Source of the DNA: Bacteroidales bacterium
GTDB taxonomy: Bacteria; Bacteroidota; Bacteroidia; Bacteroidales; PUMT01
Reading direction: 5' to 3'
Length of the DNA stretch: 32,130 nucleotides
Assembly: GCA_007123885.1 (NCBI GenBank)
Contig: SLGC01000155.1
Location: 1 to 32,130, forward strand
The translations under genes were made by a program, and so were the position numbers. The notes below the pieces were generated by a model. It did not search any database and was not told the DNA's origin. It saw only the letters and a list, made by a program, of their open reading frames with translations. This document shows positions 8,373 through 32,034 of the stretch, one piece after another; within the stretch, counting starts at the first letter, position 1; each line of letters begins with the position of its first letter.

Positions 8373-8621
8373 ATGGGAAAAAAAGATAATCCCCGGATCA
8401 AAGACCAGGAGCAGTATGAAACCTTAAGAGAAAAGGGTGAGAGCAAGGAAAAGGCCGCGAGGATCGCAAATACACCTGATTCCGGGAAAAAGGGTGGGAA
8501 AGCCGGTAAATATGAGGAACGATCAAGAAATGACCTTTTGAAAAAGGCAGAAGAGGTAGGGATCAAAGGCAGATCCAAAATGTCCAAAAAGGAGTTGATC
8601 GAAGCCCTGAGAAATCATTAG
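8373..8621 (+). CDS. Small basic protein with Rho termination factor N-terminal-like domain
   Basis: 82 aa; C-terminal 'SRNDLLKKAEEVGIKGRSKMSKKELIEALRNH' resembles a Rho_N/SAP-like helix-extended-loop-helix. N-terminal half is Lys/Gly rich. Confidence 0.8.
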   Translation: MGKKDNPRIKDQEQYETLREKGESKEKAARIANTPDSGKKGGKAGKYEERSRNDLLKKAEEVGIKGRSKMSKKELIEALRNH

Positions 8622-9574: not shown

Positions 9575-9934
9575 ATGAAAAGACTGCTTTCATACTTATT
9601 GATCGTATCCGTGCTGGCATTGTTCCACAATAACATTGCCAACTGGCATTACCACAAACTGCCCAACGGGATTGTAGTTGAGCATGCCCATCCCTTTAAC
9701 AAAGCAGCTTCAGACCCATCCAATCCATTTGAAAGACATCAACATAGTGATATAGAATACCTGATCCTGGATCTTGTATATTCAATTGGTTATATTATAA
9801 TACTGCTGTTCCCCGGATTACTGATTTTTTTGAACCGGCAAGAAATTAAACGGATTTTGCTGCCCGTTCCGGTATTTTCCGGTAATAACCAGACACTGCC
9901 CCTTCTGCGTGCTCCCCCCATCAATCCTGCATGA
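9575..9934 (+). CDS. Small His-rich membrane protein (copy 1) upstream of a TonB receptor
   Basis: Start at internal MKRLLSYLLIV. Two hydrophobic segments; 'NWHYHKLPNGIVVEHAHPF...ERHQHSDIEYL' and C-terminal 'LLRAPP', paralogous to 14805-15158. Confidence 0.75.
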   Translation: MKRLLSYLLIVSVLALFHNNIANWHYHKLPNGIVVEHAHPFNKAASDPSNPFERHQHSDIEYLILDLVYSIGYIIILLFPGLLIFLNRQEIKRILLPVPVFSGNNQTLPLLRAPPINPA

Positions 9935-10078
9935 CCACAGATGACGGTATCTGAGGTCGATGCCGCATCTGATCAATACCTGATAACTGAAACAGTATCT
10001 TAAATACCGGGACTGAATAAGAAAAACGGGTTCATTAATGAGCTGTTTCAAAGAAATTAACAAAATACATAATTAACA

Positions 10079-12307
10079 ATGACACAGATAGTTATACTGC
10101 TAGCCCTGCTTTCTTCTCCTTTGACAGTTTTTGACGGAGGAGATGTACAGGGGACTGACGCAAATGTTTTCGGACATGTTGTGAGTGCCGAAGACGGGGA
10201 GCATATTCCTTTTATCAATGTAATTATTGAAGGAACAAGGATCGGGACAATTACTGATGCCTCCGGGCATTACATGCTTACCAACCTTCCGGTTGGAAAA
10301 CATACCCTGGTGGTAAAGGGCATGGGCTATGAACCGGAGTCGGTTGAGTTTGAGATCTCAGCCAATCAGACAATAGAGATCGACATCGAGATATCCTATA
10401 CAGGAGTGGATATGGATGAGGTTATAATAACAGCATCACCGACAGCGAGCGGCTTCAGGTACCAGCCTGATATGGCATATATGGGCGAAGATCTGCAGAG
10501 AAGGGCCGAGGTTTCCTTCGGGGAAATGTTAAACGGCGAGCCCGGCGTAGCTATGAGATCGATGGGCTCGGCACCTGCCAGACCTGTTATAAGGGGAATG
10601 GATGGCGACAGGATCCTTGTCCTCGAGAACGGGGAAAGGATGGGCGATATTTCCGAAACATCGGCCGATCACACCATTTCCCTTGATCCGATGGTGGCGA
10701 GCAGGCTTGAGATCGTAAGAGGACCGGCCAGCCTTCTTTATGGTTCCAGTGCGCTGGGCGGGGTTATCAACCTTATGACCACAGACATACCTGACAGGTG
10801 GGACAGAGGCTCTTCAGGAGTTGTATCCCTGCAGGGAGCCTCCATGAACAGCATGGGAGCAGGTTTCGGCCGGTATACATACGGAAATGACAGCTGGGCT
10901 GTATCCGGCAGGTTCGCCCACAGGCAAACGTCAGATATAACCACTCCCGACGGCGTATTGAGTGGTTCATCAATGAATAGTATTGACGGATCTCTTGGAA
11001 TAGGATTTGACACAGGACGCTCAACAGGCGGAATAAGTTATTCACTTTCGGATATGGCGTATGAAATTCCCGAAAACATTCATGACCCTGATGAAGGGGT
11101 GGAGATCAAAATTCAGAGGCAGGCCCTGCAGGGCCGTGTGAATTTCAGGAACGAAGGCTTTTTTGATCGCGGTCAGCTGCGCTTCAATGCAACACATATG
11201 TTCCAGCAGGAAATAGAATACGAACTGGAAGATGGAATAAGAGATGAAGACATTGAGATTGAATATGAAAAATCTGCCTTAAGTTCCACCTATACAATAC
11301 AGCATAAACCTTTTGAATTTTTCGATCGCGGGGCGCTCGGATTTAACCTGCATGGTCACAGGCTTGATGTCGGGGGCCCCGAGGCGTACACTCCCGGTGA
11401 GTTGAGAATGAACCTGGGTGTTTTCACTTTCCAGGAAATCCCGCTTTCGGCAACAGTGAGGCTGCAGGCAGGGTTGCGGTTTGATATCCAGCATACCGGC
11501 GCACTTGCAAATGATGCATTTCCGGATATAACAAGCAGCAGGAACGCTTTTAACTATACCGGATCCATTGGATTTAACCACAGGCCTGTCGAGGGATTGG
11601 AGATTGGCGGACAGTTTGCAAGGTCTCACCGTAACCCCTCAGTGGAAGAGCTGTTTGCCGATGGCGCTCACCTCGGATTGGGAGTTTATGAGATTGGAAG
11701 TCCAAACCTCAGGGATGAAATAGGTCAGGGTGCAGACCTGTTTATGCGGTGGACAAACGGTATCATTGATTTTGAAGTAGCAGGATTTGTCAATTATTTC
11801 AGGAATTACATAATTTTTGAACCCACCGGGGAAGTCGATCCTGTTTCCGGGTATCCTGTTTTCGAGTATCTGGGTGATGAGGCAAGACTTATGGGAGGTG
11901 AATTTTCCGCTCTTTTACGACCTCATGCCAACATGGAAATCACACTTGGAGCTGATTATGTCGACGGTAGGAGGCTGAACAACGGCAGGTTCTACCTGCC
12001 TTTTATCCCGCCTCTGAGACTTATGGCAGATATTGAATACGATTTCGGGCGTGCGTGGGTCGGAGGCAAGGTACATTCTGCCACCAGCCAGCAGCGGGTG
12101 GCACCGGGTGAAGAGACCACCGGTGGCTATACATTGCTCGGTCTTTCAGCCGGTTACAGGCTAAATTCTCCTGCAAGGCAGGTAATAGTTCTGCGGGTGG
12201 ATAATTTACTTGATGAGCGTTACCGTGATCATCTTTCAAGGATAGAGGACAGGAACGTGCTGATGCCAGGGAGGAATTTCACACTTGCCTACCGGTTGTT
12301 TTTCTAA
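10079..12307 (+). CDS. TonB-dependent receptor with N-terminal carboxypeptidase-like regulatory domain (copy 1, ZnuD-like plug)
   Basis: 742 aa; 'VSAEDGEHIPFINVIIEGTRIGTITDASGHYMLTNLPVGKHTLVVKGMGY'; plug 'GEPGVAMRSMGSAPARPVIRGMDGDRILVLENGERMGDISETSADHTISLDPMVASRLEIVRGPASLLYGSSALGGVINLMT'; C-terminal aromatic 'FTLAYRLFF'. Confidence 0.95.
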   Translation: MTQIVILLALLSSPLTVFDGGDVQGTDANVFGHVVSAEDGEHIPFINVIIEGTRIGTITDASGHYMLTNLPVGKHTLVVKGMGYEPESVEFEISANQTIEIDIEISYTGVDMDEVIITASPTASGFRYQPDMAYMGEDLQRRAEVSFGEMLNGEPGVAMRSMGSAPARPVIRGMDGDRILVLENGERMGDISETSADHTISLDPMVASRLEIVRGPASLLYGSSALGGVINLMTTDIPDRWDRGSSGVVSLQGASMNSMGAGFGRYTYGNDSWAVSGRFAHRQTSDITTPDGVLSGSSMNSIDGSLGIGFDTGRSTGGISYSLSDMAYEIPENIHDPDEGVEIKIQRQALQGRVNFRNEGFFDRGQLRFNATHMFQQEIEYELEDGIRDEDIEIEYEKSALSSTYTIQHKPFEFFDRGALGFNLHGHRLDVGGPEAYTPGELRMNLGVFTFQEIPLSATVRLQAGLRFDIQHTGALANDAFPDITSSRNAFNYTGSIGFNHRPVEGLEIGGQFARSHRNPSVEELFADGAHLGLGVYEIGSPNLRDEIGQGADLFMRWTNGIIDFEVAGFVNYFRNYIIFEPTGEVDPVSGYPVFEYLGDEARLMGGEFSALLRPHANMEITLGADYVDGRRLNNGRFYLPFIPPLRLMADIEYDFGRAWVGGKVHSATSQQRVAPGEETTGGYTLLGLSAGYRLNSPARQVIVLRVDNLLDERYRDHLSRIEDRNVLMPGRNFTLAYRLFF

Positions 12308-12650
12308 CACCGGATTTAAGATTCATGTGAATAAACTTTAGTTATAAGATTGTAAATCATGCACATATAGTTTGCATTTAAGTTATTTTGGCATTGCATA
12401 GGGATGTATCCCCTTGTTTATTCATCTCTTTTTGTCTGACGAAGTCTGATGGGGATTCATTCGTATAAAGTATAGTTCTTAAATTGTCTCACAATGTGTT
12501 ACGAATTCATGATTCGGATATTTTGCTTTTCAATCCATGGATCATCCATGCTTTATACATGCCTTTTTGTGTGACCCGGCACATGGATGATTCATAAGGG
12601 GATATCAGAATTTGATTTTGGGTGCAAAATCCCATACACCATGTTGAGAG

Positions 12651-12682
12651 AAACGGGAAGGAGATTGCCCCCTTCCCGTTTT
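12651..12682. terminator. Bidirectional intrinsic-terminator-like hairpin
   Basis: AAACGGGAAGG (12651-12661) / CCTTCCCGTTT (12671-12681): perfect 11-bp stem with a 9-nt loop, between convergent genes ending at 12307 (+) and 12789 (-). Confidence 0.65.
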
Positions 12683-12788
12683 AAATCTGAGGCGCCTGAG
12701 TGGTTTTGGGCCGGTTATCCGGCCGGTCATCCGGACCCTGATACAGGTTACCTGTAAAGGGTTCCCGGAATAACCCGGCATTAACGAT

Positions 12789-14300
12789 TCAATTTCTTTT
12801 TGAAGTAATATTTCCATCAATTAATACCATGCCGGCGGCATTATTGATGATATCCCCTTTTTTGCCGGACATGATGATGTTGTGACGTAAAACGGTCCCC
12901 TCACAGTCACCATTCAGTTCTATGGAATTCATCATCACAGGATCAGGACTGGTTTCATAGATCCTGCAGCCGGATACCAGGATATTTTTGCTGCTGTTGA
13001 TCTGCACGCCTGTATGTTTCGGATTGCTTATATGATTTCCCCTGAGGGAAACGTTCCTGCTTTCATTTATGGTAATTACCCCGCCGGGATCATTATCCAC
13101 TCCATCAATTATATTATCAGTCATAATTATATTATCACAATTTGAGATTGTAATTCCTCCGGGTGCGTATTCGGCCCGCCCTGTGGCATAATCGCGGTTA
13201 TGGTCAAAAACATTTGTGCCCAAAACTATATTACGGCTGTTTTCCATTATTACATTATGTTCGTATCCACGAATGAAGGTATTTCCCGTTATACTGATCC
13301 CATGAGTATTATCCAGGTGGATGTTGATCATCTGGCTGCTGATATGATTTCCGGTAATTGACAATAGTCCGATCTTCTCATTGCTATCACCATATCCTGT
13401 AAACCTGATGTTGGCTCCACCATGGGTCGGCAAAGCCTGAATAGTATTGGAGGTAATGGTTCCTTCCCTTATGCTGCCTCCCATTGAACAATCAAACCAG
13501 ATATCCGCCGATTCAACTTCTTCTGCACTTCCACGCGGCGCACAATTGTATTCTATATCGTTGCCGGTGATCTGGATGTTCCGGATCTCGCTGTTTGTAA
13601 CCTTTATACCCCCGAGAAGATTATAGCTGATATGACTGTTGCTTATTATGATCTGGTGAAGATTGACGGAATCAAGATATATCCCCACTCCATTGCAGTT
13701 GTATATGTGGCTGTCGGTTATTATCACATTCCGGTTGCGGGATCTAAGATGAATGCCATGATGGACGTTTCGTATCAGAACTGAATTTATAATAGCCATA
13801 TGGGTATATTTAATTTCGAGTCCTGCGGCCTCAGGATGTTTGCCAGTTATTTCAAGCGCCTGCACCACCGGCATCCGTTCTTTTTCCCAGACCTGACCGG
13901 TAACTGACGCCGGACTGGCAGTGCCATGATGTGAACCGGTGATCCGGAAGGCCGGTCCCGGTCCTTCCATCATAATTCTTGCGGTTCCGCCATATCCTGA
14001 AATTCCCAAAAGCCCATTTTCAGAAAGATCAACATGTATGGTTGAGGTGATCCGGTATGTGCCTCCGGGAAATACTACCATTCCGTGGGCGCTACCTGCA
14101 ACAGCTGCTCTTATGGCTTCGGTGTCGTCTGCAATACCGTCACCACTGGCGCCAAAATCTCTAACATTTACCGGACTTCCTGCTACATTGTCAATTCCGC
14201 TGCCTGCATTTGCAACTGTTTTTTGAGTGGCAAGTGTTACAATAATAAGCAGAACAAGGTAAAATATCCGTTTTGAATGACGCTTAATTATTTTCTGCAT
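12789..14300 (-). CDS. Secreted right-handed parallel beta-helix protein (pectate-lyase-3-like)
   Basis: Start at internal 'MQKIIKRHSKRIFYLVLLIIVTLATQ'. 'VNVRDFGASGDGIADDTEAIRAAVAGSAHGMVVFPGGTYRIT' is the canonical pectate_lyase_3 N-terminus, followed by many 'ITGN..I' beta-helix coils. Confidence 0.9.
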   Translation of the reverse strand: MQKIIKRHSKRIFYLVLLIIVTLATQKTVANAGSGIDNVAGSPVNVRDFGASGDGIADDTEAIRAAVAGSAHGMVVFPGGTYRITSTIHVDLSENGLLGISGYGGTARIMMEGPGPAFRITGSHHGTASPASVTGQVWEKERMPVVQALEITGKHPEAAGLEIKYTHMAIINSVLIRNVHHGIHLRSRNRNVIITDSHIYNCNGVGIYLDSVNLHQIIISNSHISYNLLGGIKVTNSEIRNIQITGNDIEYNCAPRGSAEEVESADIWFDCSMGGSIREGTITSNTIQALPTHGGANIRFTGYGDSNEKIGLLSITGNHISSQMINIHLDNTHGISITGNTFIRGYEHNVIMENSRNIVLGTNVFDHNRDYATGRAEYAPGGITISNCDNIIMTDNIIDGVDNDPGGVITINESRNVSLRGNHISNPKHTGVQINSSKNILVSGCRIYETSPDPVMMNSIELNGDCEGTVLRHNIIMSGKKGDIINNAAGMVLIDGNITSKRN

Positions 14301-14730
14301 AGATTTGTTATTAATAGTTGATATAAGAAAAATAATCTGCAATAAAAATTGCAGCTCGTGAAAATTAAAATCATGTTTCAGAAAGGGATTCTAATGTTAA
14401 CCTGAATGCAATATCCGGTAATATAAAGTAAAACACAAAAATTATTTGCCTTTTCTTCCCTGTCCATTCTCAACCTGACAAATAGCAGGTTCAATTGGAC
14501 TTTATTCCCGCATTATGACAACAAACCAATTTTTCTGCGATGATAAACAGGTTAAAGAGATATTAATCTATTACCCGGAACAATTTCAGGCAAATGATAC
14601 GGTAAGTATGTCCAGTGCGATTATTTAGAAATATTTCAAATAGAACGTTGAGAGATGTTTTATGTGCCTGATAATTCGGATAATAAGAAAAAATATATTA
14701 ATTTTCGAAACAAATACCCAATTTAAGGTA

Positions 14731-14760
14731 TTGTGGCGTAGTGTTTCCTGTTTATATTTG
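14731..14760 (+). promoter_or_regulatory. Bacteroidetes-type promoter candidate for the second His-rich/TBDR module
   Basis: TTG (14731-14733), 19-nt spacer, TATATTTG (14753-14760), matching the known Bacteroidetes TTTG/TAnnTTTG type consensus, 44 nt before ATG at 14805. Confidence 0.5.
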
Positions 14761-14804
14761 CCATTGTTATTGAGTTAACGATTATAAGGATACGGTACAG
14801 GAAT

Positions 14805-15158
14805 ATGAAAAGAGTGTTATTCATACTGATGATTTTCCCGGTGTGCTTTGTGATGTTTAACAATGCAGCCTACAAACACCAGCATATTCTATCCGACGGC
14901 CAGGTCATCGAGCATGCCCATCCGTTTCAGCCCTGCAGCTCCAATGGAGGCGACGGTTCAGGACACCAGCATACAAAAAGCGAAATTCTTCTTTACAGCA
15001 TTATTTCAGACTCACCGGTTATTGTAATGCTGATGCCGTTATTTCTGGCTGTTTTCCGCTTTAGAGAATCTGACCTTAAGATATCCGTACCCCGAAAGGA
15101 TTTCTCAAACGCTCCCGTACTCTTTAAGCCTCTTAGGGCTCCTCCCTGCATATTTTAA
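14805..15158 (+). CDS. Small His-rich membrane protein (copy 2)
   Basis: 117 aa; 'MKRVLFILMIFPVCFVMFNNAAYKHQHILSDGQVIEHAHPFQPCSSNGGDGSGHQHTKSEILL' and C-terminal 'LRAPPCIF'; same layout as 9575-9934. Confidence 0.75.
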   Translation: MKRVLFILMIFPVCFVMFNNAAYKHQHILSDGQVIEHAHPFQPCSSNGGDGSGHQHTKSEILLYSIISDSPVIVMLMPLFLAVFRFRESDLKISVPRKDFSNAPVLFKPLRAPPCIF

Positions 15159-15301
15159 TGTTACACCTGTTTTTTCAATTCATCTTCCCGAAACATATCC
15201 TGTTTTTCAAAACCGGATGGATTGAAAACAGAAGCTAGGTGTTCCGACCCAATTGACTCCGTACTTATCAAATTCTGATCAACCTGTCAAAAGCTAATAA
15301 A

Positions 15302-15535
15302 ATGATACTGTCACTGGTGAGCCAGGAAAAAAAAGCGAAAGCCGGGTATAATTTTCCGGCACGACAGGATGATCTTTTGAACGAACTTCCGGAGTACAAA
15401 CATCAGGCATTTGAAAAGAAAAATATGCACGTGCATCATGATGAACAAGCAACATGGCAGCATCACTTTGCAGATTTAAATTTAAAAAATGAAGCTTTTA
15501 ATTTTTTGCCTGTTAATTCTCTTCAACAGTGTTAA
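15302..15535 (+). CDS. Small His-containing ORF (77 aa) overlapping the start of the downstream TBDR
   Basis: ORF track; 'YKHQAFEKKNMHVHHDEQATWQHHFADLNLKNEAFNF'. It overlaps the TBDR start at 15489 in a different frame. No counterpart is evident in the first module. Confidence 0.3.
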   Translation: MILSLVSQEKKAKAGYNFPARQDDLLNELPEYKHQAFEKKNMHVHHDEQATWQHHFADLNLKNEAFNFLPVNSLQQC

Positions 15536-17714
15536 ATTATACGGGTCCGATCTGACTGCGGAAACAGGTGCAAGTATTTCCGGGTTTATTATTGAAAGTG
15601 ACAATGGAGAACCTGTTCCCTTTATCAATATTTTAATTGAAGGCACAAAGATAGGAACAATCACCGATGCGGGAGGGCATTACAGTCTGACAAATCTCCC
15701 CGAAGGAAAACAGAACCTGATTGTAACAGGAATGGGTTATGCAGTTACAAGAATTGAACTTGAAGTAAGGTCCGGACAAATCCTGGAACGCAACATTGAG
15801 GTTCAATACCAGGGCATCAACCTTGATGAGATAGTTATCACTTCTTCACCCGTAGCACGCGGGTTCCGTTACCAGCCTGATAATATATATACCGGCGAGG
15901 AGCTGCAAAAGCGGCCCGATATTTCCTTTGGCGAGATGCTTGACGGAGAGCCCGGCATTGCAATGAGATCAATGGGACCAACCCCAAGCCGGCCGGTTAT
16001 AAGGGGGCTCGATGGAGGCCGTATACTGATTCTTCAAAACGGTGAACGGATGGGTGATGTATCGGAAACTTCAGCAGGTCATGCCATATCAATGGATCCC
16101 CTGAGTTCCAGCAGGGTGGAGGTCGTTCGCGGACCGGCCAGCCTCCTTTACGGTTCAAGTGCTATTGGCGGGGTCATAAACCTGATGACTGCAGATATTC
16201 CTGATAACTGGGATAAAGGTCCTTCCGGAGTGGTATCGTTGCAGGGTGCTTCCAACAACAACATGGGAGCGGGTTTCGGCAGGTATACATGGGGAAATGA
16301 AAACCGGGCTGCATCAGGCCGTTTCGGATACCGGAAAGCCGGAGATGTCACGACACCGCTCGGGGTTGTACCCAGTACATATATGGAGAACTATGACGGT
16401 TCACTTGGAATCGGATTTAATAATGACCGGCTCAACGGAGGATTTAATGTGGGACTGGGCAGGCAGCATTACGGGATTCCCGAAGAACTTGACGATCCCG
16501 ATGAAAGTGTGGAAGTGCGTATCCGGCAGCAGCTTATGCAGGGGAGATTGCAGTTCCGGGTAAATGATTTTTTTGACAGGGCCCAGTTCCGGATGCATGC
16601 CTCACGGTTTATCCAGCAGGAAGTAGAGATGGAATTTGAAGATGGCATACTGGAGGAGGATGTGGAAATTGAATTCAATTCCATGAATTTCAGCTCAACG
16701 CTTACCATTCAGCACAAACCGGTTGGGATTTTTGACCGTGGTGCTATCGGCCTGAATATTTATGGGCGAAAACTCGATATATCGGGCGATGATGCCTTCA
16801 CTCCCAATGAGGAACGCATAAATTTAGGGGTTTTCACATTCCAGGAGGTCCCTGTTTCGAGGATCATGCGGTTTCAATTTGGCGGAAGGATCGATTTTTT
16901 GCGGGCAACTGCTCTTCCCAATGAGTTCCTTGATATGAACATAAGCCGCAGTACCTTTGTTTATGCAGGTTCGGCGGGAATTAACCTGCGGCCGGTCGAA
17001 GGCCTGGAGATTGGGGGACAGCTTGCAAGATCGCACCGTTATCCGATGCTTGAAGAACTTTTTGCCTATGGCCCCCATCTTTGTGCCGGACTTTATGAGA
17101 TCGGAAGTATCGATCTGAGAGACGAGATCGGATATGGAGGCGATCTGTTCGTCAGGTTGTCAAAAGGCAGGATCCATATTGAGGCTGCCGGTTTTTACAA
17201 CCACTTCAACAACTATATCATTATGCAGCCTACCGGTGAGATTGATGAGGGCTCAGGGTTGCCCGTGGTTGAATATCAGAGTGACAGGGCAAGGATGTAT
17301 GGCGGGGAGGTTTCTGCCGGAATGGATATATTCAAAGGTCTCAAGGCAGATCTTGGCGTAGATTATGTTTTGGGTCAGCGGCTGGCAGAAGAAAAGGAAT
17401 TTTTACCTTTTATGCCTCCTTTCAGGTTCTCGGCAAAACTCGAATATGACTACGGAAAAGGATGGATCGGTTCCCGTGCCCGTGCAATAAGTGCACAGAA
17501 CCGGGTAGCACCTGAGGAAGATAGTACAGATGGGTATACCCTGCTTGATATTAATGCCGGTTACCGTCTGAACAGTACCGGACAGCATATCCTTATTCTA
17601 AGGGTGCAGAACATTCTTGACATTGTTTACCGTGATCATCTTACCAGGATCGAGGAGAGAAATTTCCCTATGCCTGGCAGGAATTTCAGTCTTGCATACA
17701 GGTGGTTCTTTTAA
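15489..17714 (+). CDS. TonB-dependent receptor with N-terminal carboxypeptidase-like regulatory domain (copy 2)
   Basis: 741 aa, colinear with the 10079-12307 product: 'GTKIGTITDAGGHYSLTNLPEGK', 'GEPGIAMRSMGPTPSRPVIRGLDGGRILILQNGERMGDVSETSAGHAISMDP', 'MPGRNFSLAYRWFF'. Confidence 0.95.
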   Translation: MKLLIFCLLILFNSVKLYGSDLTAETGASISGFIIESDNGEPVPFINILIEGTKIGTITDAGGHYSLTNLPEGKQNLIVTGMGYAVTRIELEVRSGQILERNIEVQYQGINLDEIVITSSPVARGFRYQPDNIYTGEELQKRPDISFGEMLDGEPGIAMRSMGPTPSRPVIRGLDGGRILILQNGERMGDVSETSAGHAISMDPLSSSRVEVVRGPASLLYGSSAIGGVINLMTADIPDNWDKGPSGVVSLQGASNNNMGAGFGRYTWGNENRAASGRFGYRKAGDVTTPLGVVPSTYMENYDGSLGIGFNNDRLNGGFNVGLGRQHYGIPEELDDPDESVEVRIRQQLMQGRLQFRVNDFFDRAQFRMHASRFIQQEVEMEFEDGILEEDVEIEFNSMNFSSTLTIQHKPVGIFDRGAIGLNIYGRKLDISGDDAFTPNEERINLGVFTFQEVPVSRIMRFQFGGRIDFLRATALPNEFLDMNISRSTFVYAGSAGINLRPVEGLEIGGQLARSHRYPMLEELFAYGPHLCAGLYEIGSIDLRDEIGYGGDLFVRLSKGRIHIEAAGFYNHFNNYIIMQPTGEIDEGSGLPVVEYQSDRARMYGGEVSAGMDIFKGLKADLGVDYVLGQRLAEEKEFLPFMPPFRFSAKLEYDYGKGWIGSRARAISAQNRVAPEEDSTDGYTLLDINAGYRLNSTGQHILILRVQNILDIVYRDHLTRIEERNFPMPGRNFSLAYRWFF

Positions 17715-17997
17715 CAGCAATACCCGGTTAAGATTCCCCACGCATCATACCCGCGTATGCTTTGCCAGGCCACCATCGTATGGTTAATTACCTGATACAT
17801 GACTTATTTTCATCAGTGACCGTCAAAATCAAAAACAGATTATCCTAAACAGGAATTTGGGTACCTGAATTAAACAATATAATTACAGGATATTGCAGAA
17901 GCCATACGATACTTGTTAAAAAATTAATAGAAGTATATACATGAGTAGAATAATGAATAATTATAAATTAATTTCCAGTCCAAAAAGCCATAAAACC

Positions 17998-20475
17998 ATG
18001 AAACTTTTCAAATTATTAAACATGTTCATCCTTAGTGTGCAGATTATGAGCATTATGCCAGCCAGTGCAAATTACAGGCAGGATAATAATTCCGGTATTT
18101 ACGGAAGGGTATTACACGATGGGGAAGGTGCCCCCTTTGTAACCGTCCATATAAAGGGAACATCAACCGGCACCTCTACCGATGCCGATGGATACTTCAG
18201 GCTTGATGGCATTCCTTCCGGCAGGCATATCATTATGATTCAGGGCATAGGATACGAAAATAAAGAGTCAACTATGCGTCTGGCACCCGGGAGGATCATG
18301 GAGATTGAATTCAATATTGAACAGGATTTCCTGCTTATGGAACAGGTCGTTGTATCGGGCAGCAGGGTAGGAGCGCTAAGGTATCTGCCCGGATCTGCCG
18401 GGATATTGACAAGCCGTGAATTACGGGCCATAGCACCGTTGAGCGGGAATGAAGTCCTTCGCACCATAACCGGCGTCCATGTTGTGGAGGAGGAGGGTGC
18501 AGGATTGCGCGCCAATATCGGGATCAGGGGTCTGGATCCGGATAAGAGCAGGAATGTCCTGATGCTTGAGGATGGAATTCCTGTAGCACTCGGTCCTTAC
18601 GGTGAGCCGGAAATGTACTTTACACCGGGCATTGACAGGATGAGCGGGATTGAGGTACTTAAAGGCAGCGGTTCAATTCTTTACGGCCCTCAAACCATTG
18701 GCGGTGTGATCAATTACATCACAGCCGATCCCCCGGTGGAGAGCTCCGGGTTTGCGAGATTCAGCGGCGGACAGGGAGGCTATTATACCGGAAACCTGGG
18801 TTACGGCAATACTTTAGGGAATACCGGCTTTACTGTCAACTACCTCAGGAGACAGGCAGAAAACCTGGGCCAGACTCAATTTATTCTTGATGATATAAAT
18901 AGTAAAATCCGTTTTGATGCCTCTCCCCGTTCAGATATCATGGTGAAGCTCGGAATTTACAATGAGAATTCCAATTCCACTTACGTGGGACTGACCCAGT
19001 CCATGTTTGATGCCGACAAATATGACTTTGCCAGGATCGCACCAGACGACAGGCTTGAGGTGCGGCGTTACTCTATCGGTGTCACCCACAATTTCAGGGC
19101 GAATGAAAACCTGCAGCTCAATACTGCCGCCTATGCCTACACAACAACAAGAAACTGGAAAAGGCAGGATTTTACATATGATGCCGGAGCATCAAACCTG
19201 ACCGGAATAAACTGGGGTGACAACGGTTTACGGGATGGTGCAATTTATCTGAGAAACAGTACAGGAAACCGCAACAGGCAGTTCGAGGTTGCTGGGATCG
19301 AGCCCAGGCTTACATACCGGTATAGCTTCGGCGGAAGGGAAAACATTCTGGATGCCGGCACCCGGCTGCTTTATGAACGTGCCTACGAGCAAAGGGTGGA
19401 TGGCACTTCTGCTACAGCCACATCAGGAAACCTTCGTAATGACGAGGTAAGGACAGGACATGCATTGAGCGCTTTTGCGCAGAACAAGATGATTGTCAAT
19501 GACAGGCTCTCCTTAACTGCCGGGATCCGAGCCGAAGCCCTGCAATATGAACGTCGCATTCTCCGGTCAAACCATGCCGATACTGATATCAGGAACACAA
19601 CCAGGGTGGCTGAAATTATACCCGGCGGGGGGTTTAACTTCAACTTCACCGACGGGATCGGGCTGTTTGGCGGTGTGCACAGGGGATTCGCACCTCCCCG
19701 CATAAAGGATGCTATAAGCAATGATGGTACAGATTTGGAACTGGATGCTGAAAAGAGTTGGAACTATGAACTTGGAATGAGGAATGAGTTTTCCAATATC
19801 GCAAAGTTTAATGTTACCCTCTTCCTTATGGAATTCTCAAACCAGGTGATACCGGTTTCCGAATCTTCAGGAGGTGCGGGTGCAGGTCTTATAAACGGTG
19901 GGCGCACTAACCACCGGGGAATAGAAGGGGAGCTGCTTCTTGATATCTCAGTACTTTCAGGTATGCGTGGTAATATGGTGATGGCTGTTAATTCTACTAT
20001 TACCGAATCCAATTTTTCGGGCGACCGGTTTGTTGCACAGTATTACTGCCATCACGTTGATGAGGTTATATACATGAATATTAAAGGCAACCGCACTCCT
20101 TACGCTCCCGCTTTCACTTCATCGGCTTATCTTCAGTATGAGACCGACCGGGGGTTTGGCTTCAGACTGAAAGGGCAATTCACCGGAAGCCAGTATACCG
20201 ATGTTCTTAATACCGGATATGTCAATGAATGGTTTGAAAAATCAGCAGCAGATGACCATAACTATTACCAGGCTACTGCAAATGGCCGCATAGGGATGAT
20301 GCCCTCATATTTTATAATGGATGTATCGGCATGGTACAGCCTCTCATCAGGGATCGCAGTAAACATGCAGGTAAGGAACCTGTTTGATCAAAGATATATC
20401 GTTTCCCGCAGGCCGCAGGGCATAAGGGTCGGGTTGCCCAGGATGGTCAACGCAGGCATAAGCTATAATTTTTAA
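17998..20475 (+). CDS. TonB-dependent receptor, FecA-like
   Basis: Likely start 'MKLFKLLNMFILSVQIMSIMPASA'; regulatory domain 'GIYGRVLHDGEGAPFVTVHIKGTSTGTSTDADGYFRLDGIPSGRH'; 'RANIGIRGLDPDKSRNVLMLEDGIPVALGPYGEPEMYFTPGIDRMSGIEVLKGSGSILYGPQTIGGVINYIT'; C-terminal 'RMVNAGISYNF'. Confidence 0.93.
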   Translation: MKLFKLLNMFILSVQIMSIMPASANYRQDNNSGIYGRVLHDGEGAPFVTVHIKGTSTGTSTDADGYFRLDGIPSGRHIIMIQGIGYENKESTMRLAPGRIMEIEFNIEQDFLLMEQVVVSGSRVGALRYLPGSAGILTSRELRAIAPLSGNEVLRTITGVHVVEEEGAGLRANIGIRGLDPDKSRNVLMLEDGIPVALGPYGEPEMYFTPGIDRMSGIEVLKGSGSILYGPQTIGGVINYITADPPVESSGFARFSGGQGGYYTGNLGYGNTLGNTGFTVNYLRRQAENLGQTQFILDDINSKIRFDASPRSDIMVKLGIYNENSNSTYVGLTQSMFDADKYDFARIAPDDRLEVRRYSIGVTHNFRANENLQLNTAAYAYTTTRNWKRQDFTYDAGASNLTGINWGDNGLRDGAIYLRNSTGNRNRQFEVAGIEPRLTYRYSFGGRENILDAGTRLLYERAYEQRVDGTSATATSGNLRNDEVRTGHALSAFAQNKMIVNDRLSLTAGIRAEALQYERRILRSNHADTDIRNTTRVAEIIPGGGFNFNFTDGIGLFGGVHRGFAPPRIKDAISNDGTDLELDAEKSWNYELGMRNEFSNIAKFNVTLFLMEFSNQVIPVSESSGGAGAGLINGGRTNHRGIEGELLLDISVLSGMRGNMVMAVNSTITESNFSGDRFVAQYYCHHVDEVIYMNIKGNRTPYAPAFTSSAYLQYETDRGFGFRLKGQFTGSQYTDVLNTGYVNEWFEKSAADDHNYYQATANGRIGMMPSYFIMDVSAWYSLSSGIAVNMQVRNLFDQRYIVSRRPQGIRVGLPRMVNAGISYNF

Positions 20476-31587: not shown

Positions 31588-32034
31588 TTAATTGCCGGCA
31601 TCTTCTTTTGTGCCGTAAATATAGAGCGAATGATGTGATGGCTTGAAATTTGCAAGTGAACATGCAGTTTTTATGATCTCCTGTATCCTGGGGTCGCAGA
31701 ATTCAATAACTTCACCTGATCTGGTATCAATCAGATGGTCATGTTGCTTGCATTCATGAGCCTTCTCAAACTGGGCGATGTTCCGGCCGAATTGATGTTT
31801 TACTACCAGATTGCATTCCAGTAATAGATCAATTGTATTGTACAGGGTTGCCCTGCTCACCCTGTAATTTTTATTTTTCATTGAGATATACAGCGATTCT
31901 ATGTCAAAGTGACCTTCATGTGTATATATCTCATCAAGAATAGCAAATCTTTCGGGAGTTTTTCTGTGTCCTTTTTTTTCCAGATATTCTGTGAACAGCT
32001 TTCTCACTGTATCTTTTGAATCTATGCAGGCCAT
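31588..32034 (-). CDS. Fur-family transcriptional regulator
   Basis: 148 aa; winged-helix '[60 protein letters not shown]'; metal region '[11 protein letters not shown]...[13 protein letters not shown]'. Confidence 0.92.

Follow-up and report, generated by a model that had tools for sequence, protein, structure and literature searches.

The CruR protein of Bordetella pertussis (bp2923, DUF2946), encoded upstream of bfrG, is a small exported protein that carries the sequence RAPP three residues before its end and makes the downstream TonB transporter gene copper-repressible, since relief of ribosome arrest allows termination by Rho (PMC9426467). The arrest of CruR was later demonstrated in vitro (PMC12992588). 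RAPP and RGPP are the two robust, versatile and EF-P-resistant ribosome arrest motifs, and upstream open reading frames (uORFs) with these motifs are enriched before TonB receptor genes across Gram-negative phyla (Fujiwara et al. 2025, PMC12992588). CutF represents a second copper case, for which a mode based on a stem-loop and unmasking of the ribosome-binding site (RBS) was proposed; in the survey of CutF-like proteins, 40% of the hits (normalised) belong to Bacteroidota, and the neighbours often include TonB-like genes (PMC9973294). The authors of the CruR study pointed out that no riboswitch was known for copper or zinc and proposed protein leaders for that role (PMC9426467). Here we analysed 32,130 nucleotides of a Bacteroidales bacterium (contig SLGC01000155.1 of assembly GCA_007123885.1, positions 1 to 32,130; hereafter the window), in which two small His-rich proteins are each encoded ahead of a ZnuD-like TonB-dependent receptor. 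Our comparison suggests, with a probability of roughly three in four, that each small His-rich protein acts in cis as a nascent-chain leader, sensing a divalent metal, probably zinc, and controlling the gene downstream of it.

The first gene pair consists of uORF 1 (9575..9934, 119 residues), a gap of 144 nucleotides (9935..10078) and receptor 1 (10079..12307, 742 residues), the second of uORF 2 (14805..15158, 117 residues), a gap of 330 nucleotides (15159..15488) and receptor 2 (15489..17714, 741 residues), all on the forward strand. The original prediction had described a duplicated module for metal uptake in which the small protein serves as a dedicated accessory of a ZnuD-like receptor. 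The four open reading frames and the gene order common to both pairs were found as described, and both partners are indeed paralogous, with 35% identity over 116 residues (E 6e-19) between the small proteins and 59% identity over 717 residues between the receptors. The kinship of the receptors with ZnuD, the linkage and the metal-related context likewise stood, while the accessory role was not supported. In a receptor tree, copy 1 and copy 2 fall into separate clades, each shared with other species, which indicates that the duplication of the module is old.

The two small proteins share a C-terminal LRAPP (...LLRAPPINPA and ...LRAPPCIF), with four and three codons, respectively, between the motif and the stop codon. 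The RAPP codons (9908..9919, residues 112-115 in uORF 1; 15135..15146, residues 111-114 in uORF 2) are the predicted arrest sites, on the basis of the function established for this motif (PMC12992588). Sixty related genomes contain 30 homologous open reading frames, every one of which encodes R[AG]PP one to eight codons before its stop. To avoid circularity, a model built from the N-terminal part only was searched in 396 genomes of the phylum; among the 21 further homologues that it revealed, 17 carry RAPP or RGPP, and the other four end in RDPP, KSPP, RAPS and RASP. In the pooled set, from which a 98th sequence was removed as a chance reverse-strand match, 94 of 97 true homologues have the motif (RAPP in 53, RGPP in 41), mostly two to five residues before the stop. 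It is written in 80 distinct 12-nucleotide codings that use all six Arg codons, which indicates that selection on the motif acts at the peptide level. Such an ending occurs in 89 of 93 family members but in only three of 666 other genes of the same loci, each of these three being a His-rich RAPP uORF as well. Mutagenesis of ApdA and ApdP showed that the Arg is irreplaceable and that replacement of Ala by Gly is fully, and by Asp partly, permissive (PMC12992588); the natural variation in the His-leader family matches this tolerance set.

Besides the C-terminal motif, conservation is seen in three HxH motifs, in a Gly that separates the first two, in the Pro that follows the second and, to a lesser degree, in a Glu; H25, H27, H37, H39, H55 and H57 are invariant. 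An AlphaFold model based on 42 sequences (predicted local distance difference test score 78, predicted template-modelling score only 0.36) shows an N-terminal helix (residues 2-23), a hairpin whose strands (24-28 and 34-38) carry one HxH each, a long helix (59-95) and, at the end, the RAPP motif in a disordered tail. In uORF 1, which has the layout of a signal or membrane protein with the order HxH...HxHP...HxH, the hairpin histidines H25-Y-H27 and H37-A-H39 are encoded at 9647..9691, the third HxH (H55-Q-H57) at 9737..9745 and the second hydrophobic helix at 9749..9859. The architecture of uORF 2 is the same, with H25-Q-H27 and H37-A-H39 at 14877..14921 and H54-Q-H56 at 14964..14972, all in conserved columns. 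The distance from the first HxH to the Arg of the motif is 81-91 residues in 90% of the members. Where the second helix is clear, its centre lies about 36 residues before this Arg, within the range in which a nascent chain is pulled by its insertion into the membrane (PMC7886326). Searches of Pfam, NCBIfam, PHROGs and the PDB returned nothing usable for the family, with no Pfam family for either window protein; a match to the His-rich prefix of HypB was rejected because it reflects His richness only, and Foldseek found no structural relative of the model.

The linkage of small protein and receptor is conserved, as the original prediction had expected. In 28 of the 30 homologous loci of the 60 related genomes, the next gene encodes a receptor with the domain order of the window receptors, both of which contain CarboxypepD_reg, Plug and TonB barrel domains (Pfam). 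A query with the receptor alignment alone retrieved 79 loci from named genomes, 71 of them assessable after hand checks, and a RAPP/RGPP uORF lies just upstream in 59 of these. The genomes are chiefly metagenome-assembled genomes of Bacteroidales, and also those of cultured Alkaliflexus, Natronoflexus, Alkalitalea, Geofilum and Perlabentimonas; judging by isolate names, we take many of the assembled genomes to derive from soda-lake sediment. Three distinct receptor types occur behind the His/RAPP leader. Moreover, the leader heads operons for an adaptor, a resistance-nodulation-division pump and an outer membrane (TolC) protein in three genomes (L068, L072 and L083), and the pump exceeds the CusA/CzcA cut-off in both operons tested (L068 and L072). 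Operon partners in the wider phylum were uninformative for metal typing, with a thioredoxin-like gene recurring among them and the others unassigned.

Receptors also occur without a leader. As the receptor tree requires four changes of uORF state, the association is best read as old and lost several times. The leaderless receptor of one Balneolales locus (L194) is divergent from genes for an MntR-like regulator and a Zn/Mn-type (AztC/MntC-type) ATP-binding cassette (ABC) binding protein, both of which score below the curated cut-offs. This regulator and binding protein, together with the CusA/CzcA pumps, place the family in a metal-related context. Loci L196 and L197 have a similar gene layout with the same regulator sequence upstream, and in all three loci the divergent DtxR-type regulator gene adjoining the ZnuD-like receptor may stand in for the leader through control of transcription. 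In L096/L125 (contig C196 of genome G012), a receptor with 85% identity to copy 1 has lost its leader and lies directly behind an unrelated gene; the same genome still keeps leader-bearing copies. Since the small protein accompanies different metal genes and yet is not required by the receptor, it behaves like a regulatory element.

The two window proteins share several properties with CruR, namely small size, export, a C-terminal RAPP near the stop codon, a near-fixed spacing between metal motif and arrest motif, and a long gap directly ahead of a TonB-dependent receptor gene (PMC9426467). In contrast to CruR, the putative sensor is HxH/HxHP/HxH and not CXXC, a second membrane helix is often present, the receptor is ZnuD-like and the metal is probably another one. 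No CXXC is present in either window protein, and thus a CruR-type CXXC about 45 residues before RAPP was not found in them. Membership in DUF2946 (PF11162) was rejected, since the window copies were unmatched, only one of 42 members matched at E 3.5e-4, and none did in the 60 related genomes. By motif, size, position and neighbour, the His-leaders belong to the same sequence class as the TonB-linked uORFs of Fujiwara et al. (2025, PMC12992588); the main text of that paper makes no mention of zinc, and for members from Bacteroidota it names neither a family nor a sensor domain or metal. As in RAPP-type arrest peptides, the motif lies close to the C-terminal end of a small protein of secretory or membrane type whose gene is directly upstream of the gene to be regulated. 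The layout of CutF-like proteins is found as well, with fewer than 150 residues, PP within the last 15 residues and a downstream gene within 1000 nucleotides; here, the N-terminal helix of the AlphaFold model, and not the output of a dedicated signal-peptide predictor, stands for the signal peptide. However, the His-leaders lack CxxxC and show no consistent stem-loop over the start of the next gene, and the His-only clusters of the CutF-like survey adjoin HupE/UreJ nickel/cobalt transporters, not TonB-dependent receptors (PMC9973294). Taken together, and as far as sequence can show, the His-leader family fits both RAPP-type arrest leaders and metal-responsive uORFs; within the CruR/CutF class it would be a variant of His type that lies outside DUF2946. 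It is not described in the papers on arrest peptides, CruR and CutF that we consulted and may be contained, unnamed, in supplementary lists of CutF-like proteins or RAPP uORFs.

Other sensors are found on the same kind of arrest end. Elsewhere in the genome that contains the window (G000, contig C151, locus L206, 857-1830 on the reverse strand), a Fur-family gene overlaps a Cys/His-rich open reading frame of 190 residues with RAPP at its end and CRLC 44 residues ahead of this motif, resembling the CXXC-45-RAPP arrangement of CruR; it has no Pfam match to DUF2946, and behind it lies a further TonB receptor gene whose product matches ZnuD weakly and has a GADH motif. This open reading frame is, by its layout, a candidate CruR-like leader in a Bacteroidota genome. 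Two ZnuD-like receptors of Balneolaceae (L199 and L200) have yet another leader, rich in Asp and His, with CALC and a C-terminal RAPP. As the CRLC and CALC leaders keep the C-terminal RAPP, the sensor part appears to be exchangeable while the arrest end stays.

Which metal is sensed can be approached through the receptors. ZnuD, the zinc receptor of Neisseria, provides the best NCBIfam model for both (NF038289, 190 and 206 bits) and the best sequence match in the PDB, and it takes ranks one to three in a Foldseek search (best E 3e-34, template-modelling scores 0.71/0.74) with an AlphaFold model built from 38 relatives. The original prediction was thus borne out in this respect, although identity is only about 20%, an extra N-terminal CarboxypepD_reg domain is present and both scores are far below the curated cut-off of 950 bits. 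The high-affinity zinc ligands of ZnuD are Asp-99, His-100, Glu-340 and His-499 (PMC4557270). In receptor 1, whose SADH and GAH motifs resemble this site, Asp-197, His-198 and His-531 align with Asp-99, His-100 and His-499, whereas receptor 2 has a Gly at the position of Asp-99 (SAGH in place of SADH). With this difference between the copies, they may serve two substrates or two expression conditions, as the original prediction suggested. Both histidines are invariant among the 38 relatives, and Glu-378 and Glu-453, also invariant, are both candidates for the counterpart of Glu-340, a region skipped by the local alignments. It is quite conceivable, although the odds are below even, that the leader senses copper, or nickel, cobalt or manganese, instead of zinc: copper is the metal of both CruR and CutF, the next structural matches of the receptor include OprC, His-only CutF-like clusters adjoin nickel/cobalt transporters (PMC9973294), and the regulator beside a leaderless receptor is MntR-like. 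On the other hand, ZnuD is closest to the receptors in every comparison, His is kept at the positions of His-100 and His-499, and the sensor is His-only, without CXXC. We favour zinc on account of the kinship of the receptors, a sensor built on His only and the neighbour of AztC/MntC type.

From the conservation, position, linkage and losses of the leader and the kinship of its receptors, all read from sequence, we propose a model in which arrest, metal binding, the identity of the metal, Rho dependence and the direction of control are predicted. The N-terminal helix of the nascent small protein would be exported during synthesis until the ribosome halts at the C-terminal RAPP or RGPP. By then, the HxH motifs (55-87 residues upstream) would have emerged from the ribosome and may have crossed the membrane, which the second helix would be entering. 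Binding of a divalent metal, most likely zinc, to the His hairpin could change folding or pulling force and thereby alter the arrest. By analogy to CruR, when there is little metal the ribosome would remain stalled, shielding the mRNA from Rho, and the ZnuD-like receptor would be made; in the presence of metal, the arrest would be released, translation would end and transcription would stop within the long stretch ahead of the receptor gene. Two independently tunable sensor-receptor pairs would have arisen from the old tandem duplication.

Alternatively, the stalled ribosome could unmask the RBS of the receptor gene, as proposed for CutF (PMC9973294), instead of blocking Rho. The gap is long, with a median of 139 nucleotides, and its sequence is not conserved. 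When 87 loci were folded in the presence and absence of a stalled ribosome, no consistent unmasking was revealed: the accessibility of the start region rose only from 0.50 to 0.54 (mean change 0.05), with a gain above +0.15 in 12 loci. An RBS-masking structure over the receptor start is not supported by these results, no conserved one being found in the 144-nucleotide gap behind uORF 1 either, and we consider unmasking unlikely. Furthermore, the uORFs are richer in C than in G, while the receptor genes are not. Since consistent unmasking was not found and the C excess fits Rho, we prefer the CruR-like polarity for the receptors, in which low metal would lead to stalling and receptor expression.

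A membrane-bound or periplasmic metal chaperone, which hands metal to or from the receptor, would be closest to the accessory role first proposed. The conserved HxH motifs, the export signal and the linkage to a metal receptor would be expected of such a protein, but it offers no account of a C-terminal arrest motif that is kept at the protein level while the rest drifts, nor of the same protein ahead of efflux operons and of receptors that do without it. As the conserved parts are the HxH and the RAPP/RGPP motifs and all three observations fit a cis-acting leader, the leader replaces the accessory in our interpretation; a chaperone on its own is improbable, and a dual role as chaperone plus leader is possible. 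An arrest leader that, like SecM, MifM or ApdP, monitors membrane insertion or export and not metal would make use of the two hydrophobic segments and of the position of the second helix within the range of insertion pull (PMC7886326), but is highly improbable in view of three invariant HxH motifs and downstream genes for metal transport, not Sec/YidC.

Several points weigh against a metal-sensing arrest leader as we have drawn it. Control at the efflux operons would have to run with the opposite polarity, or in a CutF-like mode, and most receptors behind the His/RAPP leader in the wider phylum are of a different TonB-dependent type. The membrane part of our model may be wrong, given that CruR can do without its export signal (PMC9426467), and only about 70% of the members have a clear second hydrophobic helix. 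The C-over-G excess of the uORFs fits a Rho utilisation site but may stem from His and Pro codons. Arrest, metal binding and metal-dependent expression are predictions here, and the assignment of the metal is based on receptor kinship and neighbouring genes, so that manganese, cobalt, nickel and copper are also candidates.

Some neighbouring genes of the window should be mentioned. A gene for a pectate-lyase/NosD-like beta-helix protein (12789-14342, reverse strand) separates the two modules; because these are directly adjacent in the four related genomes checked (L091-L094), it is probably an insertion in this genome. Behind module 2, about 230 nucleotides downstream of receptor 2, follows a third TonB-dependent receptor gene (17941..20475, forward strand) with siderophore/FecA-like scores and no RAPP leader of its own. 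This order is kept in at least two related genomes (L090 and L093), which suggests that the gene is possibly co-transcribed with module 2. A small gene for a protein with DUF7218 and Rho_N domains lies just upstream of module 1 (8373-8621, forward strand), and a Fur/PerR-family regulator gene adjoins purA (31588-32034, reverse strand).

Overall, the two studied metal-sensing leaders that we found in the literature consulted, CruR and CutF, both sense copper, and the His-leader family adds close to a hundred natural variants whose sensor differs in being His-only. Its natural set of arrest motifs agrees with the mutagenesis of other arrest peptides, and it brings new target genes, with three receptor types and efflux pumps, as well as repeated losses. 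More tentatively, such leaders may represent zinc-responsive nascent-chain sensors across Bacteroidota, in which a four-His beta hairpin, possibly periplasmic during translation and coupled to the insertion of the next helix, tunes RAPP/RGPP arrest and controls genes for zinc receptors and efflux. To our knowledge, a zinc-sensing arrest peptide would, if true, be the first of its sort. The family raises the question whether zinc can be sensed by a ribosome arrest peptide and, if so, on which side of the membrane this happens, and it points to likely regulated receptor genes in cultured isolates such as Alkaliflexus imshenetskii, Natronoflexus pectinivorans and Alkalitalea saponilacus.

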